From Candidatus Desantisiibacteriota bacterium (GTDB lineage: Bacteria > JACRDZ01), in the NCBI GenBank assembly GCA_016209155.1, contig JACQWU010000317.1, positions 1 through 6,059 on the forward strand: a stretch of 6,059 bases of DNA. The letters run 5' to 3'. How positions within the stretch are numbered: the stretch's first letter is position 1; each line of letters opens with the position of its first letter. Positions 604 to 6,059 of the stretch are shown here, piece by piece. The notes beneath the pieces are model-generated. The model was not told the origin of the DNA. It was given only the letters and a program-made list of their open reading frames with translations, and searched no databases. Made by a program: the position numbers and the translations under genes.

Positions 604-936
604 ATGAAAACTTTTAATCTTTTAACTACGTCAAATATTTTAAGACTTAGATTGATTGGTCCGAAAAGAGAGTATCCCCGGCTTTTTACTTTTCTTAAAA
701 TTAAAAATGTTCCTGCAACTAATAATCAAGCAGAACAATCTCTTAGGAATATAGTTATATTTAAAAAAATCTGTTTTGGGACACGCTCTCCGGAAGGGTC
801 ATATACTCATAGTGTGTTTCCGAGTTTGATATTAACGGCCAAACGACAAGGCAAACATCCGCTTGCTTTTTTTAATACTTTATTAACTTCGGATATTAAA
901 ACATCACAAGCTGCTTTATATAGAAATTTTTTTTAA
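604..936 (+). pseudogene. IS66-family transposase, C-terminal fragment
   Basis: The 110-residue frame matches the C-terminal end of IS66 (TnpC-type) transposases. The hallmark TNNQAEQSLR (residues 39-48) carries the glutamate (E44) regarded as the last acidic residue of the DDE catalytic triad. It is followed by FKKICFGTRSPEG (53-65), by TAKRQGKHPLAFFNTLL (78-94), and by a short tail. Similarity starts at about residue 11. The family is usually around 450-550 aa, so about four fifths is missing, including the earlier aspartates, the zinc-finger region and the N-terminus. In-frame stops at 562 and 595 block any upstream extension. The ATG at 604 is therefore probably not a natural start. No partner genes (tnpA/tnpB) or terminal inverted repeats are recognised nearby. 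This is a dead remnant of an insertion, and the fragment cannot transpose. Confidence 0.85.
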
Positions 937-1037: not shown

Positions 1038-1067
1038 TTGACCGACGGTCGGTCATTGTGCTACTAT
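1038..1067 (+). promoter_or_regulatory. Predicted promoter of the tetR gene
   Basis: A TTGACC -35 hexamer (1038-1043) is separated by 18 nt from TACTAT (1062-1067), which matches four of six bases of the TATAAT -10 consensus. The -10 ends 33 nt before the ATG at 1101. An A/T block (TTATTTTTTTATT, 1019-1031) lies just upstream, where an UP element would act. The -35 and the spacer are covered by the operator palindrome at 1039-1055, so a bound repressor would block RNA polymerase. Confidence 0.6.
1039..1055. promoter_or_regulatory. TetR operator O1
   Basis: TGACCGACGGTCGGTCA is a perfect 17-nt palindrome: 8-nt arms around a single central G. It overlaps the -35 of the promoter of the adjacent TetR-family gene, and the same sequence recurs ahead of the next operon at 1774-1794. 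Palindromes of the form GACCG-n-CGGTC, of this length, are typical targets of TetR-family dimers. Autoregulation is inferred from position. Confidence 0.85.
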
Positions 1068-1100: not shown

Positions 1101-1718
1101 ATGACCAGAATAGTAAAAAAACCTGATAAGCGCAGGCAGGAAATCATAGCTGCCGCCCGAGAAATATTCCAGAAAAAGGATTATAAAAGCACCACCATGC
1201 AGGACATCATGGATACATTGGGAATCGCCAAAGGTACAATATATCACTATTTCAAGTCTAAAGAAGATTTGCTTGAGGCAATCATTTCAAATACAGTTGA
1301 TCAGTACATTGCAAAACTAAAAAAGGTTTTGGATGAAACTGAAGGCAGTGGACTGGACAAAATGCGTGCTTTAATCATATCCGGTAATGTTGAGCAGCAG
1401 CACAAGGAAATACTTGAACACCTGCATCATCCGAGCAATATCGGTCTGCACACCCGCCAACTGGCAGTTACCCTATTGCGGTTAGCGCCTCTTCACGCAA
1501 CTGCTATACAACAGGGGTGCGAGGAAGGAATTTTCAAAACCGAACATCCACTTGAAAGTGCTGAGTTTTTACTTGCAGGTATTCAGTTTTTAACAGATAC
1601 AGGCTTTTACCCATGGAGAAATGAAGATCTGATGCGACGTGCTATGGCAATACCATCGCTGATTGAAGCACAGCTGAATGCACCAAAAGGTTCATTCAAT
1701 TTTCTGGTTGGGCAATAA
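1101..1718 (+). CDS. TetR/AcrR-family transcriptional repressor
   Basis: This is a 205-aa protein of normal family length. Residues about 10-57 form the TetR N-terminal DNA-binding domain. The first helix is RRQEIIAAAREIFQKKDY. The helix-turn-helix is TMQDIMDTLGIAKGTIYHYF (32-51), with the characteristic G45-T46-I47-Y48-H49-Y50-F51 recognition-helix end and KSKEDLL (52-58). The remaining ~145 residues are helical and should form the ligand-binding and dimerisation domain. It resembles the C-terminal domains of other TetR regulators only in general pattern (for example QQGCEEGIFKTEHPLESAEFLL), so the ligand cannot be predicted. An AAGGAGA site (1087-1093) with a 7-nt gap fixes the start. It has its own operator-covered promoter, and an identical operator lies between it and the following three-gene operon. 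It therefore most likely represses itself and those genes until an inducer binds. Confidence 0.95.
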   Translation: MTRIVKKPDKRRQEIIAAAREIFQKKDYKSTTMQDIMDTLGIAKGTIYHYFKSKEDLLEAIISNTVDQYIAKLKKVLDETEGSGLDKMRALIISGNVEQQHKEILEHLHHPSNIGLHTRQLAVTLLRLAPLHATAIQQGCEEGIFKTEHPLESAEFLLAGIQFLTDTGFYPWRNEDLMRRAMAIPSLIEAQLNAPKGSFNFLVGQ

Positions 1719-1773
1719 TGAAATAAAATTTTTAAGAACGTATAGAAAAACAAGATTATTTTTTTATTACCAT

Positions 1774-1794
1774 ATTGACCGACGGTCGGTCAAT
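1774..1794. promoter_or_regulatory. TetR operator O2 with promoter of the three-gene operon
   Basis: The 17-nt O1 palindrome is repeated here and extended by two further complementary pairs, giving a perfect 21-nt inverted repeat. TTGACC at 1775-1780 is a plausible -35. At the 18-nt spacing used upstream, the -10 would be ATCAAT (1799-1804), a weak three-of-six match. The A/T block TTATTTTTTTATT (1756-1768) precedes the operator at exactly the same 6-nt distance from TTGACC as in O1. The site is 31 nt before the start of the exported-protein gene, well placed for repression. Confidence 0.82.
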
Positions 1795-1824
1795 GAAAAT
1801 CAATAAGAAAGGAGATGAAAAAAA

Positions 1825-2808
1825 ATGGTAGAAACCACAACAAAAAAGATGTTCGAGATGCTTAAACAAGTGCTCTATTTATACCTGATTGTTCTGTATC
1901 CTGTAGTTGCGTACTGTGACAGCAGTGAAGATGTAAAGCAAAATAATCATTTATCTGTACCGCTTGTGCAGTACGACGATATGAACCTGACCAGCCATCG
2001 CATTCAGTCGACCAGTGCGGGTCTGCTTCTCAATCGGGAAGACGTCAAATTTACCGGAATTTATACCCAGCATGAATTCAACAAATCGCTCTCTTACGAC
2101 TTTCCGAATATGTATCACAGCATAGACACATTGCTTGAAGTGAAAAATGGACGTAATCAATACATTGTCATATTAAAGAGTGATTCAGATCAGCCGATAA
2201 GCGGCGGACTAAGTACGCTTCAAGCGGGTGCTGTATATGGAAAAAAGCTGATTAACAACTCCAGGCTGTCACTTGTATTAGGCGGCGGGATTGCAATTGG
2301 TGATTTCGGCATTGAAGTGTCCGATGGTGAACCATGGCCGGTAATACCTGTTCCTCTGGTGCGCATGAATTATCATCCAAATTTGCTCGACTTGAATTTT
2401 GAATTCCTGACATCACCGAATTTGAATTTTACGATTGCTCCAAAAAAACGTATACGATTCACCGGTGATTTTCGTATAGACCAGATGAGAGACTCACGCG
2501 ATATTATATTCGAAACAAATCTTGTGTACCGCATTTTCAACGACAACCACAAGCTGGGTGATTTTGCCGGAGTATCCATAGGATTCAAAAACGATAATGT
2601 CGGCCCTTTTGCTCTGGAAAATAAAGATAAAGAGGAAACTGTGGAAGTGCACTATTACTCTGTGTTTGTAACAATTGATCTGTCTATTATTAAACTGTCT
2701 GTGGGACGTGCATTTGATGGTCGCTTGCTTTATCGCGAAGATATTAAGCAAGACATCGGCGAAGGAAATTTTATTTCGGTTCAGGGAATGATTCCCCTGC
2801 CATTATAA
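1825..2808 (+). CDS. Exported, beta-rich protein of unknown function (possible outer-membrane barrel)
   Basis: This 327-aa product was not recognised. An AAAGGAGAT site (1808-1816) with an 8-nt gap selects the ATG at 1825. The N-terminus has lysines 7, 8 and 14, then a hydrophobic core VLYLYLIVLYPVVA (16-29). Probable signal-peptidase cleavage is after A29 or C31, with a polar mature end (DSSEDVKQNN). The signal n-region is long and has two glutamates, so starts at M9 or M12 would also work. The mature part lacks transmembrane helices. It is made of alternating polar and hydrophobic stretches with Gly- and Asn-rich turns (LVLGGGIAIGDFGIEV, LNFEFLTSPNLNFTIAP, VHYYSVFVTIDLSIIKLSVG), as in small outer-membrane beta-barrels. 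The last residue is Leu, not the usual Phe of a barrel-assembly signal. It is the first gene of an operon with a membrane protease-like protein and a lipoprotein hydrolase, which also points to the envelope. Confidence 0.8.
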   Translation: MVETTTKKMFEMLKQVLYLYLIVLYPVVAYCDSSEDVKQNNHLSVPLVQYDDMNLTSHRIQSTSAGLLLNREDVKFTGIYTQHEFNKSLSYDFPNMYHSIDTLLEVKNGRNQYIVILKSDSDQPISGGLSTLQAGAVYGKKLINNSRLSLVLGGGIAIGDFGIEVSDGEPWPVIPVPLVRMNYHPNLLDLNFEFLTSPNLNFTIAPKKRIRFTGDFRIDQMRDSRDIIFETNLVYRIFNDNHKLGDFAGVSIGFKNDNVGPFALENKDKEETVEVHYYSVFVTIDLSIIKLSVGRAFDGRLLYREDIKQDIGEGNFISVQGMIPLPL

Positions 2809-2841
2809 ATAAATACAAATAAACTATAGGAGGTATTTATC

Positions 2842-3678
2842 ATGCGTAAACGTGATCTGATTTTATTTTTCTTAATTACTTTTTTTCTCACATGGGGCAT
2901 TGTAGCACTTTATATGCTTGCTCCAAATATGATGGTCGGGTTATTCGGAAAGCTTACAGGAAGCCATCCGCTTTTCTTCCTGGCTGTCTGGGGACCGGCA
3001 ATCTCAGCACTTATCATGGTTCTCTTCCGACACGGTTTTGCTGGTGTGCGCCATTTTTTATCCCGCATGCTTCTGTGGCGGGCATCGCTCAACTGGTATG
3101 CATTTATTTTCATACTTGTACCGTTGGTATTCTATGCGGCGTCTCTATTCATTGATGGCGCATACAACACGCTGTTTCCATTTGAATCAGTACAGGCATA
3201 TATTACGGCTCTTCTCCTTATGGGACTTAAAGGGCCGATCGAGGAAATCGGCTGGCGCGGATTGGCACTTCCACTGCTTCAGCGTCGTATGTCACCTTTT
3301 TGGTCTGCAATAATAATAGGTGTTATTTGGGCCATATGGCATACCCCTGCTTTTTTATTAAGCGTTGCTGTTTATAGCGCATGGTCTTTTGCACCGTTCT
3401 TTTTCGGCACCGTGGCCTTAAGCATTATTATGACAGCTCTTTTCAACAGTTCACGCGGCAGTATTCTTCTTCCTGCCTTGCTCCACTGGCAGCTCATTAA
3501 TCCACTATGGCCTGATGTACAGCCTTACGACAATTGGATAATGATAATAATTGCCATTGCTATAGTGTGGATTAACCGCGATACAATGTTTTCAAGTAAA
3601 AATTCCATAAAGGAGGTATTCCCAAATGAGAAAGATACTATTAGTTCTATGCCTTGTTACTCTGGCAGCATGCGTTAA
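2842..3678 (+). CDS. CPBP-family intramembrane metalloprotease / Abi protein
   Basis: This 278-aa polytopic inner-membrane protein carries all the CPBP (CAAX protease and bacteriocin-processing, Abi) signatures. The E-E-x-x-x-R motif is GPIEEIGWRG (E134, E135, R139). A second motif is IWAIWHTPAF (H167), and the third is ALLHWQLIN (H215, N220). The two glutamates and two histidines are the presumed metal and catalytic residues, so activity is plausible. Hydrophobic segments lie at about 6-26, 44-63, 84-104, 155-175, 183-201 and 231-245. Related proteins include Rce1-type proteases and bacteriocin self-immunity proteins; the substrate here is unknown. AGGAGGT (2828-2834) sets the start, 33 nt after the previous gene. 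The final ~22 residues (NSIKEVF onward) are hydrophilic. They are translated from the next gene's ribosome site and start, a 53-nt overlap that probably results from a one-base frameshift near 3598-3602. Confidence 0.93.
   Translation: MRKRDLILFFLITFFLTWGIVALYMLAPNMMVGLFGKLTGSHPLFFLAVWGPAISALIMVLFRHGFAGVRHFLSRMLLWRASLNWYAFIFILVPLVFYAASLFIDGAYNTLFPFESVQAYITALLLMGLKGPIEEIGWRGLALPLLQRRMSPFWSAIIIGVIWAIWHTPAFLLSVAVYSAWSFAPFFFGTVALSIIMTALFNSSRGSILLPALLHWQLINPLWPDVQPYDNWIMIIIAIAIVWINRDTMFSSKNSIKEVFPNEKDTISSMPCYSGSMR
3609..3617 (+). promoter_or_regulatory. Ribosome-binding site of the serine hydrolase gene, inside the CPBP frame
   Basis: AAAGGAGGT is a near-perfect anti-Shine-Dalgarno match 8 nt before the ATG at 3626. 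It shares the 10-nt block AGGAGGTATT with the site ahead of the CPBP gene (2828-2837 and 3611-3620). It fixes the start of the lipoprotein hydrolase within the end of the CPBP reading frame. A TAA at 3608-3610, one frame away from the CPBP frame, overlaps its first bases. Confidence 0.85.
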
Positions 3679-4780
3679 TCATTCTATGACTAAAGTTAAT
3701 AAAGATTTTCAGTCTGAGGTTGACCGCATACGTGCGGAGTTTAATTTGCCCGGTATGACTGCCGCCTATATTTTAAATGACGGAACAAGTGGTACTGCCT
3801 CTTCAGGTTTTTCAGATATTGAGACGAAGGCATTGATGAAAGACAATACTCGCATGCTCGCAGCGAGTATAGGTAAAAGTTTTGTCGGTGCCTTAAGCAT
3901 CGCGCTTGCACAAGAAGGACGATTAACGCTCGATGAACCTATATCACGCTGGCTTGGTAAGTACGATTGGTTTGAGCAACTTCCAAACCATGAATCGATT
4001 ACATTACGGCACTTACTCACTCAAAGTTCAGGGCTCCCCGATCATGTGCATATGGAGGAATTCCAAAAAGCATTTGCAAGCGAGTGGAAAAAGTCAGAAA
4101 ATACATTTACACCTGAGCGGCTTGTACGGTTTATACTGAATAAGCCTGCGCTCTTCCCTGCAGGGCAAGGCTGGGCTTATTCTGATACAGGCTACATTCT
4201 TGCAGGTATGGTTTTAGAGGAAATTATCGCGAACTCTTATTACGATGAAATTCATGCAAGGTTTATAAAGCCCCTAAAAGTTTCAGACACATCCCCTTCA
4301 GATCGAAGAAACTTGCACGGTTTATCTGCAGGGTATATGAGTTCGGACAATCCATTCGGGCTTCCGGCAAAAACGCTTGATGAAAATGGTCACCTGTACT
4401 TGCATCCGGCAATAGAGTGGACAGGCGGAGGACTGATAACTACATCTTTAGATCTTTCCCGCTGGGGTGCCGCCTTATTCACAGGAAAGGCTTTATCCGG
4501 TGAGTATCTTTCGGAACTATTCACAGCAGCGGCAATTGATCCGAACGCTACTGACATCCAATATGGCGCAGGTATCGCGATCAATACAAATGGCCGTTTT
4601 GGCCCTGTATATGGTCATGCCGGATGGATACCGGGTTACATCTCAAGTTTACGTCATTACCGCAATAGTGGTGTTACTATTGCATTCCAGATTAATACAG
4701 ACAGCGGAGTTATCGCCAGCAATAAAAGTGTTGTTAAAAAAATCGAAGAGCGATTATTGGAAATAGTAATTGAGAAATAA
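3626..4780 (+). CDS. Lipoprotein serine hydrolase, beta-lactamase (class C / DD-peptidase) fold
   Basis: This 384-aa protein belongs to the PF00144 penicillin-recognising serine hydrolases. Residues 1-16 form a lipoprotein signal with lipobox L13-A14-A15-C16, so C16 should be lipidated and the enzyme anchored on the periplasmic face of a membrane. The next residue (V17) is not Asp. The active-site elements are in order: S81-I-G-K84 (SxxK, nucleophile and base), Y185-S186-D187 (in the YxN position, with Asp instead of Asn, a variant common in non-lactamase members), and H331-A-G333 (in place of KTG). Other conserved segments are LRHLLTQSSGLP (127-138), GWAYSDTGY (182-190) and EWTGGGLITTSLDLSRW (264-280). 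The HxG third motif resembles R61-type DD-peptidases, D-amidases and esterases more than AmpC, so penicillin hydrolysis is not implied. It is the last gene of the TetR-controlled operon and has no obvious terminator after it. Confidence 0.93.
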   Translation: MRKILLVLCLVTLAACVNHSMTKVNKDFQSEVDRIRAEFNLPGMTAAYILNDGTSGTASSGFSDIETKALMKDNTRMLAASIGKSFVGALSIALAQEGRLTLDEPISRWLGKYDWFEQLPNHESITLRHLLTQSSGLPDHVHMEEFQKAFASEWKKSENTFTPERLVRFILNKPALFPAGQGWAYSDTGYILAGMVLEEIIANSYYDEIHARFIKPLKVSDTSPSDRRNLHGLSAGYMSSDNPFGLPAKTLDENGHLYLHPAIEWTGGGLITTSLDLSRWGAALFTGKALSGEYLSELFTAAAIDPNATDIQYGAGIAINTNGRFGPVYGHAGWIPGYISSLRHYRNSGVTIAFQINTDSGVIASNKSVVKKIEERLLEIVIEK

Positions 4781-4983: not shown

Positions 4984-6059
4984 TTATTTTTTCAACTCAG
5001 TTCCTGACAACCATACACCTTTTATCATTACTCCTGAAATTTTACTGATATTTGCAATATCATTAAGAGGATTTTTATCTAATAATACAAGATCAGCATT
5101 CTTGCCAGGTTCTATTGTTCCGAATTCATGCAATTTTCCCAGATGTTCGGCCGGATTAACTGTTGCGGTTTTTATTGATTCGTAAGGAGATAATCCAGCA
5201 TTGACCAGATATTGCAATTCTTCATGAACCGACCAACCAGGAAAAACAAAAGGATTGCCGCTATCAGTTCCAAGCAGAAGTTTAGCACCGGCTTTATGCA
5301 AAGCATTTACCATTTTGTAATTTATCTCTGTTATTCTTTTATTATAATCCCCTTTATATTTAATCGATTTGTTTAATTCATTAATTGATATTCTTAAGAA
5401 AATTTTTTGCATAAATGATAAATGCTTCATTCCCGGATGATTTGCCATCTCATCGATTTTTTTTTCATCCAGACCTCTTTTCTGCCAAATTACAATTGTA
5501 GGACAATTCCACACTCCGGCTTTTTTGGTTAATTCAGCATATTTTTCAATTGAGTTTTCCGGAATCAAAAAATCAGCCGCATCAGGATCGATATAACCAG
5601 TCAGGTGATCTATGCTTATTTGTCCTGATTTTAAAGTATTATCAATCCCGACAGCAAAAGGGACATGCCCTTTTACCGGTATTTTGAGCTCCGACGCTTT
5701 TTTAACTATTGCATTGTATGTTGAAGAGTCCAGATTGTCATATACTTTTATAAAATCATATCCACTATTTTTTTGATCTACAACCTCTTTTTCTCCAGCT
5801 TCAGGGGTCATGATTTTTTTCATAAAAGGATGCGTAAGCGGTTCACCTTCAAGTATAGAACCGGCAGTGTAAATAGTTGGTCCAAGAATTTTCCCTTGTT
5901 TTATATCCTCACGCATTTTAAGCTGGTAAGGGAAACCCATAATTCTGAATTTCCAACCATTGTATCCCCATGTGTTTTGAACTGTTGTAACACCATGCGC
6001 AATAAACAAAAAAAGCTCATTATCATTATTAATATGAACATGCATATCAGAAAGTCCGG
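4984..6059 (-). CDS. Metal-dependent amidohydrolase (imidazolonepropionase/prolidase-like), 5' end missing
   Basis: The frame stays open through the right edge. Upstream of the ATG at 6045 it reads G-L-S-D-M-H-V-H, the typical beta-strand 1 motif of amidohydrolases. That ATG is therefore internal, and the start and any signal peptide lie outside the window. Numbering from that Met, the metal ligands are H2 and H4 (HVH), K100 in DFIKVY (the probable carboxylated bridging lysine), H127 (KGHVP), H147 (SIDHLTG) and D261 (LLGTDSGNP). This set is typical of binuclear members such as the imidazolonepropionase-related dipeptidases and prolidases. The C-terminus shows the conserved EELQYLVNAGLSPYESIKTATVNPAEHLG and the beta-sandwich return GTIEPGKNADLVLLDKNPL. 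The likely reaction is hydrolysis of an amide bond in a small peptide or ring; the substrate is not predictable. It converges on the serine hydrolase operon and appears unrelated to it. Confidence 0.93.
   Translation of the reverse strand, partial: GLSDMHVHINNDNELFLFIAHGVTTVQNTWGYNGWKFRIMGFPYQLKMREDIKQGKILGPTIYTAGSILEGEPLTHPFMKKIMTPEAGEKEVVDQKNSGYDFIKVYDNLDSSTYNAIVKKASELKIPVKGHVPFAVGIDNTLKSGQISIDHLTGYIDPDAADFLIPENSIEKYAELTKKAGVWNCPTIVIWQKRGLDEKKIDEMANHPGMKHLSFMQKIFLRISINELNKSIKYKGDYNKRITEINYKMVNALHKAGAKLLLGTDSGNPFVFPGWSVHEELQYLVNAGLSPYESIKTATVNPAEHLGKLHEFGTIEPGKNADLVLLDKNPLNDIANISKISGVMIKGVWLSGTELKK

Follow-up and report, generated by a model that had tools for sequence, protein, structure and literature searches.

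A contig of a Candidatus Desantisiibacteriota draft genome (JACQWU010000317.1; its whole analysed stretch of 6,059 nucleotides is called the window) carries four consecutive genes for a TetR-family repressor, an exported beta-rich protein (open reading frame 2 [ORF2]), a CPBP intramembrane protease, and an S12 serine hydrolase. This block is best seen as a variant of a CPBP-plus-S12 peptide-hydrolysis arrangement and as a unit that is real, mobile, and recurrent. The account that we favor, tentatively and at somewhat less than an even chance, is that the block came in laterally and forms an inducible envelope operon that hydrolyzes a peptide of the periplasm in two steps; the peptide would probably be constrained or D-residue-rich. 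The host genome (3.08 Mb in 352 contigs, 79% complete) belongs to a thinly sampled phylum, with three further genomes among the relatives drawn. The genes are as follows.

1101..1718, forward strand: tetR, TetR-family repressor (Pfam TetR_N and TetR_C_39).
1825..2808, forward strand: ORF2, exported beta-rich protein of 327 amino acids, probable outer-membrane barrel (no family above cut-off).
2842..3678, forward strand: CPBP intramembrane (Rce1-like glutamic) protease of 278 amino acids (PF02517; PDB 4cad, MmRce1).
3626..4780, forward strand: S12/PF00144 serine hydrolase of 384 amino acids, predicted lipoprotein with a LAAC lipobox (Pfam and motifs).

These positions and the same-strand order are exactly those given in a first-pass annotation made from the sequence alone. 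The tetR gene is separated from ORF2 by 106 bp and ORF2 from the CPBP gene by 33 bp; the last 53 bp of the CPBP gene are also the first 53 bp of the hydrolase gene. A strong ribosome-binding site of the AGGAGG/AAGGAG type lies ahead of each of the four starts. Two palindromes that the first-pass annotation had not cited flank tetR.

1038..1056, no strand assigned: putative TetR operator 1, TTGACCGACGGTCGGTCAT, an autoregulatory site 45 bp 5′ of tetR with one mismatch to the 19-bp palindrome.
1775..1793, no strand assigned: putative TetR operator 2, TTGACCGACGGTCGGTCAA, a 19-bp perfect inverted repeat around a central base, 32 bp 5′ of ORF2.

No such pair was expected by chance (0 in 200 shuffles), and the palindrome core occurs twice in the whole draft genome, both times in the window. 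A 50-bp repeat (1009-1058 and 1746-1795; 78% identical) spans each operator together with a T-rich stretch upstream of it, and the regulatory region looks as if it had been duplicated. The TetR_N match (68 bits) and the palindrome at the gene's own promoter identify tetR as encoding a TetR repressor. The two-operator layout is that of a classic autoregulated TetR, which would bind both sites and control one adjacent operon.

The four genes share a composition foreign to their host. Their GC content is 41.2 to 43.5%, and their third-codon-position GC content (GC3) is 37 to 42%, compared to 34.0 ± 3.6 and 25.7 ± 5.2, respectively, for 50 sampled host coding sequences; the block thus stands about 8 to 9 GC points above the genome. 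A neighboring gene that converges on the block is genome typical (GC, 34.6; GC3, 26.0). On composition, tetR, ORF2, and the CPBP and hydrolase genes look to have been acquired laterally as one unit, and this links ORF2 and tetR with the CPBP-hydrolase pair without recourse to homology. The paired operators, the overlapping genes, and the common foreign composition together support the view in the first-pass annotation of a single repressor-controlled unit. The convergent neighbor encodes an amidohydrolase (PF01979, Xaa-Pro dipeptidase-like; 4984-6057, reverse strand), is cut by the contig end, and probably has nothing to do with the operon. An AT-rich C-terminal remnant of an IS66 transposase (604-936, forward strand) closely precedes the operon and is a possible trace of transfer.

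We scanned GTDB contigs with the CPBP protein and found relatives 46 to 61% identical in Desulfatibacillum, Desulfotignum, another Desulfobacteraceae genome, Fodinibius, and metagenome-assembled genomes of an alphaproteobacterium and a member of the Anaerolineae. The hydrolase gene (55 to 62% identity) directly follows the CPBP gene in Desulfotignum, the Desulfobacteraceae genome, and Fodinibius. In the cyanobacterium Acaryochloris marina, the pair is found on a conjugative plasmid (54% and 54.5% identity), the two genes overlapping by 4 bp. The CPBP subfamily is rare overall: in 372 genomes from across the domain, only one match equaled the window's own in strength, and one was weaker. Of 241 Desulfobacteria genomes, 16 contain it (E below 1e-85). 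The hydrolase gene is adjacent in 6 of these 16, and a further one has a truncated copy. Two genomes labeled here G650 and G048 combine this hydrolase subfamily (43 to 49%) with other CPBP subfamilies (26 to 31%), which argues for a functional link; in a mirror-tree comparison of the pair, a correlation appears only once divergent loci are included. Judged by gene order, the co-occurrence of CPBP and hydrolase is not due to chance, since their adjacency recurs across distant phyla. The first-pass annotation had made its operon depend on homologues of all three structural genes being found together elsewhere. That holds for the CPBP and hydrolase genes; for ORF2 it holds by position only, in that several loci have a beta-rich neighbor. 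Genes for DUF6544/DUF6920 proteins recurrently adjoin this CPBP subfamily in Desulfobacteria (loci L009, 1662-2216; L092, 7710-8570; and L093, 7854-8675) and may encode a functional partner.

The first-pass annotation knew of no named system with this composition, and our literature search for papers naming such an operon found none. The two enzyme classes, though, are those of microcystin degradation, in which MlrA, an inner-membrane CPBP protease, opens the cyclic heptapeptide microcystin (PMC12474180) and MlrB, a periplasmic PF00144 hydrolase, cuts the linear product of MlrA (PMC11070527). The mlr cluster of sphingomonads (MlrA and MlrB with MlrC and MlrD) and the window block both encode an inner-membrane CPBP/Rce1-like protease together with a secreted PF00144 hydrolase, and mlr is horizontally acquired, as the block appears to be. 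We compared the two using the published residues and motifs of MlrA and MlrB rather than a direct sequence alignment.

The window protease belongs to the CPBP family (PF02517; E, 5e-13; 49.6 bits against a cut-off of 22.4). Its first motif is as follows.

3241..3261, forward strand: CPBP motif 1, EEIGWRG (E134, W138), with EE and GWRG invariant in 13 homologues.

The EEIGWRG-type, WxxWH, and third-histidine motifs are kept in 13 aligned relatives, and divergent CPBP subfamilies also keep the first two (EExxWRG and WxxWH). E134/W138, W163/H167, and H215 agree in type and spacing with MlrA, whose residues are E172, W176, W201, H205, H260, and N264 (PMC12474180): E-x3-W and W-x3-H are shared, and E and H are 33 residues apart in both. 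The following asparagine (N220) is at +5 rather than +4, giving a third motif of H-x4-N and not H-x3-N. The sole solved CPBP structure found in a search for an MlrA-like one was that of MmRce1 (PDB 4cad), a type II CAAX protease of the same family that is alignable over most of its length; the window protein differs in belonging to a distinct subfamily with a conserved NPxxPDxxPYD stretch.

The hydrolase is an S12 enzyme (PF00144; E, 9e-47; 160 bits against a cut-off of 27) with SIGK, YSDT, and YGHAG motifs, the first two of which are located as follows.

3866..3877, forward strand: SIGK (SxxK) motif with S81/K84, assigned by motif comparison.
4178..4189, forward strand: YSDT motif (Y185, D187), with Asp at the usual YxN position; YxDT in 11 of 11 homologues compared.

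Hydrolases of all the compared loci retain SxGK, YxDT, and YGHxx. A LAAC lipobox is present in the window and Desulfotignum hydrolases, with none obvious in that of Fodinibius. Set against MlrB (S77, K80, Y171, N173, and H307; PMC11070527), the window enzyme has S81, K84, Y185, and H331, whereas D187 replaces Asn173, and the protein is about 150 residues shorter (384 against about 540 amino acids). Pfam detected neither MlrC (M81) nor MlrD (PTR2) among the window proteins, and a PF07364 search of the host genome, run with no positive control on a 79%-complete assembly, gave no match. A search with published mlrA primers of plasmids and 385 Alphaproteobacteria genomes gave four matches, no more than the reversed control, and none was in a CPBP gene. 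Unlike mlr, the block has a TetR repressor and an exported beta-rich protein. By these motif and gene-content comparisons, the window block is not an mlr cluster, because the window lacks mlrC and mlrD, YSD replaces YxN in the hydrolase, which is also about 150 residues shorter than MlrB, and the last CPBP motif is spaced differently.

Among solved structures, those closest to the hydrolase were alkaline D-peptidase (4y7p), DD-carboxypeptidase (1cef), and D-amino acid amidase (2dns). These and ClbP (3o3v) share with it the S12 family and the SxxK and HxG-type motifs; the window enzyme differs from them in its YxD motif, lipoprotein anchor, and CPBP operon context. The first-pass annotation had listed peptidoglycan, D-peptides, esters, and beta-lactams as substrates of this fold. 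Our results narrow the list toward D-peptidases and DD-carboxypeptidases and away from beta-lactamases: the class C model scored 37 bits against an NCBIfam cut-off of 415, and YSD stands in place of YxN. We rejected the beta-lactamase assignment.

DD-carboxypeptidases among the S12 relatives, together with a weak AmpH match, fit a role in peptidoglycan or envelope maintenance, with the hydrolase as DD-carboxypeptidase or endopeptidase, the CPBP protein as its scaffold or regulator, and ORF2 as a structural barrel. The CPBP protein likewise weakly matched SdpC, a CPBP-like subunit involved in peptidoglycan release (20.8 bits, with the cut-off at 300). However, no locus has lost the catalytic CPBP residues, which points to a protease rather than a scaffold; the patchy, horizontally transferred distribution is unlike that of housekeeping wall enzymes; and the hydrolase has YxD instead of YxN. 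We consider such a role improbable.

The likeness to D-peptidases also counts in favor of self-protection, in which the operon would be induced to destroy an antimicrobial peptide (nonribosomal peptide or lipopeptide) or to shield the envelope from it, the peptide being a threat and not food. A D-stereospecific peptidase activity of Bacillus hydrolyzes gramicidin A (PMC9541196), CPBP proteins have been proposed as bacteriocin-immunity proteins (as quoted in PMC6914704), and TetR control would suit self-protection. In contrast, we recognized no peptide-biosynthesis genes in the loci read, and the PADLOC phage-defense library had no match for the CPBP protein or the hydrolase. Self-protection overlaps the account that we favor, differing in purpose; we rate it as unlikely but as a serious contender. 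It takes in the proposal of the first-pass annotation that the block could confer immunity to, or degrade, an envelope-active compound that may double as the inducer. A phage-defense assignment was rejected, as PADLOC returned nothing for the two enzymes and a single weak helix-turn-helix match for TetR.

ORF2 has a Sec-type signal peptide, read by eye (N-terminal KK...VLYLYLIVLYPVVAYC). It contains 13 amphipathic-strand 10-mers, compared to 7.3 ± 1.9 in shuffles (z, 3.0); the same test gave z values of 0.5 to 3.3 for exported proteins of other loci and 0.0 and 0.2 for two soluble window enzymes. From its signal peptide, strand amphipathicity, and position, ORF2 is a probable outer-membrane barrel. 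The three envelope locations that the first-pass annotation had predicted for ORF2, the CPBP protein, and the hydrolase are supported. ORF2 has no Pfam match, and we judged its weak matches elsewhere (E, 2.6e-4 to 0.006) to be due to chance. Assignment to DUF6268 was rejected: PF19783 did not match, the hhalign score fell inside the shuffle range, and a global test gave z values of 0.35 to 1.0 (class-preserving shuffles). The host genome contains no DUF6268 gene.

Exported beta-rich proteins are encoded ahead of CPBP in at least five genomes, two of them with DUF6268. In genomes G764 and G672, and in G770 at a contig edge, a gene for such a protein of 340 to 350 amino acids precedes those for CPBP and hydrolase. 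Fodinibius has its sole DUF6268 gene at this position. Genome G612 (L102, 4063-8991) has, consecutively and in one direction, genes for a protein that resembles DUF6268 and shares 30% identity with the Fodinibius protein, for three CPBP proteins, and for an S12 hydrolase; a gene resembling an AraC-type regulator precedes this row. In G651, the order is hydrolase, CPBP, and DUF2860. DUF6268 (PF19783; upstream in Fodinibius and G612) and DUF2860 (PF11059; downstream in G651) thus occupy the same slot as ORF2 beside CPBP and hydrolase and are exported and of similar size, but ORF2 has no significant sequence similarity to either. The barrel is a frequent but not obligatory partner of the CPBP-hydrolase pair, because DUF6268 genes lie mostly away from CPBP (near it in 1 of 7 loci). 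In G048 (L145, 3791-6136), the genes for hydrolase and CPBP are followed by one for a large, TonB-receptor-like protein that contains a CarboxypepD_reg domain and is a candidate outer-membrane partner.

That an exported protein is encoded beside CPBP in several loci recalls myxosortase, a CPBP protease that sorts surface proteins (PMC11980579). By analogy, CPBP could cleave a C-terminal or transmembrane tag of exported proteins such as ORF2 or the hydrolase, the latter acting separately as an enzyme. By eye, however, neither protein has a C-terminal helix with a basic tail or a cysteine tag, and the CPBP-hydrolase pair is also found without a barrel gene. We regard sorting as very unlikely.

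The regulators of these loci vary with lineage: the window has TetR, Fodinibius and G048 have AraC, and G764 and G672 have a divergent sigma-54 activator, recognized through Pfam in the former and through similarity in the latter. Retention of the structural genes under exchanged regulators suggests an inducible function that each host has wired separately. A broader proposal is that of a widespread, so far undescribed mobile module, distinct from mlr, whose barrel-like outer-membrane protein, CPBP, and S12 hydrolase jointly import and dismantle a natural peptide class (for example, cyclic or D-residue-rich peptides from cyanobacteria or other neighbors) and are induced by the peptide through interchangeable regulators. 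We hold this broader proposal to be rather unlikely.

We favor two-step peptide hydrolysis because the two enzyme classes of the block, and the compartments expected for them, are those of MlrA and MlrB, and because a ligand-responsive repressor and a candidate component of the outer membrane accompany them. ORF2, in the outer membrane, would allow passage of the substrate or its products. CPBP, in the inner membrane, would make the first cut, e.g., opening a cyclic or membrane-inserted peptide, and the outer-membrane-anchored, D-peptidase-related hydrolase would cut the product that CPBP releases. The order would be that of MlrA then MlrB, with a substrate other than microcystin. The substrate or a breakdown product may bind TetR and so lift repression.

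Several observations weigh against two-step hydrolysis. The D-peptidase likeness is a best match with too low an identity to pin down a substrate. In 9 of the 16 Desulfobacteria genomes, CPBP has no hydrolase with it, and CPBP and hydrolase distances lack significant covariation (r, 0.18; nine core loci). The Desulfotignum and Acaryochloris pairs have no adjoining barrel gene. Relatives of ORF2 were not found in the sampled genomes, GTDB contigs, viral contigs, or plasmids, and its single-sequence AlphaFold model had a predicted local distance difference test score of 30 and was not used for a fold search.

CPBP proteases are widespread, and few of their bacterial substrates are known; a conserved, transferable CPBP-S12 pair under inducible control offers a testable route to one. 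The window block also suggests that the enzyme pairing of MlrA and MlrB is not peculiar to microcystin.

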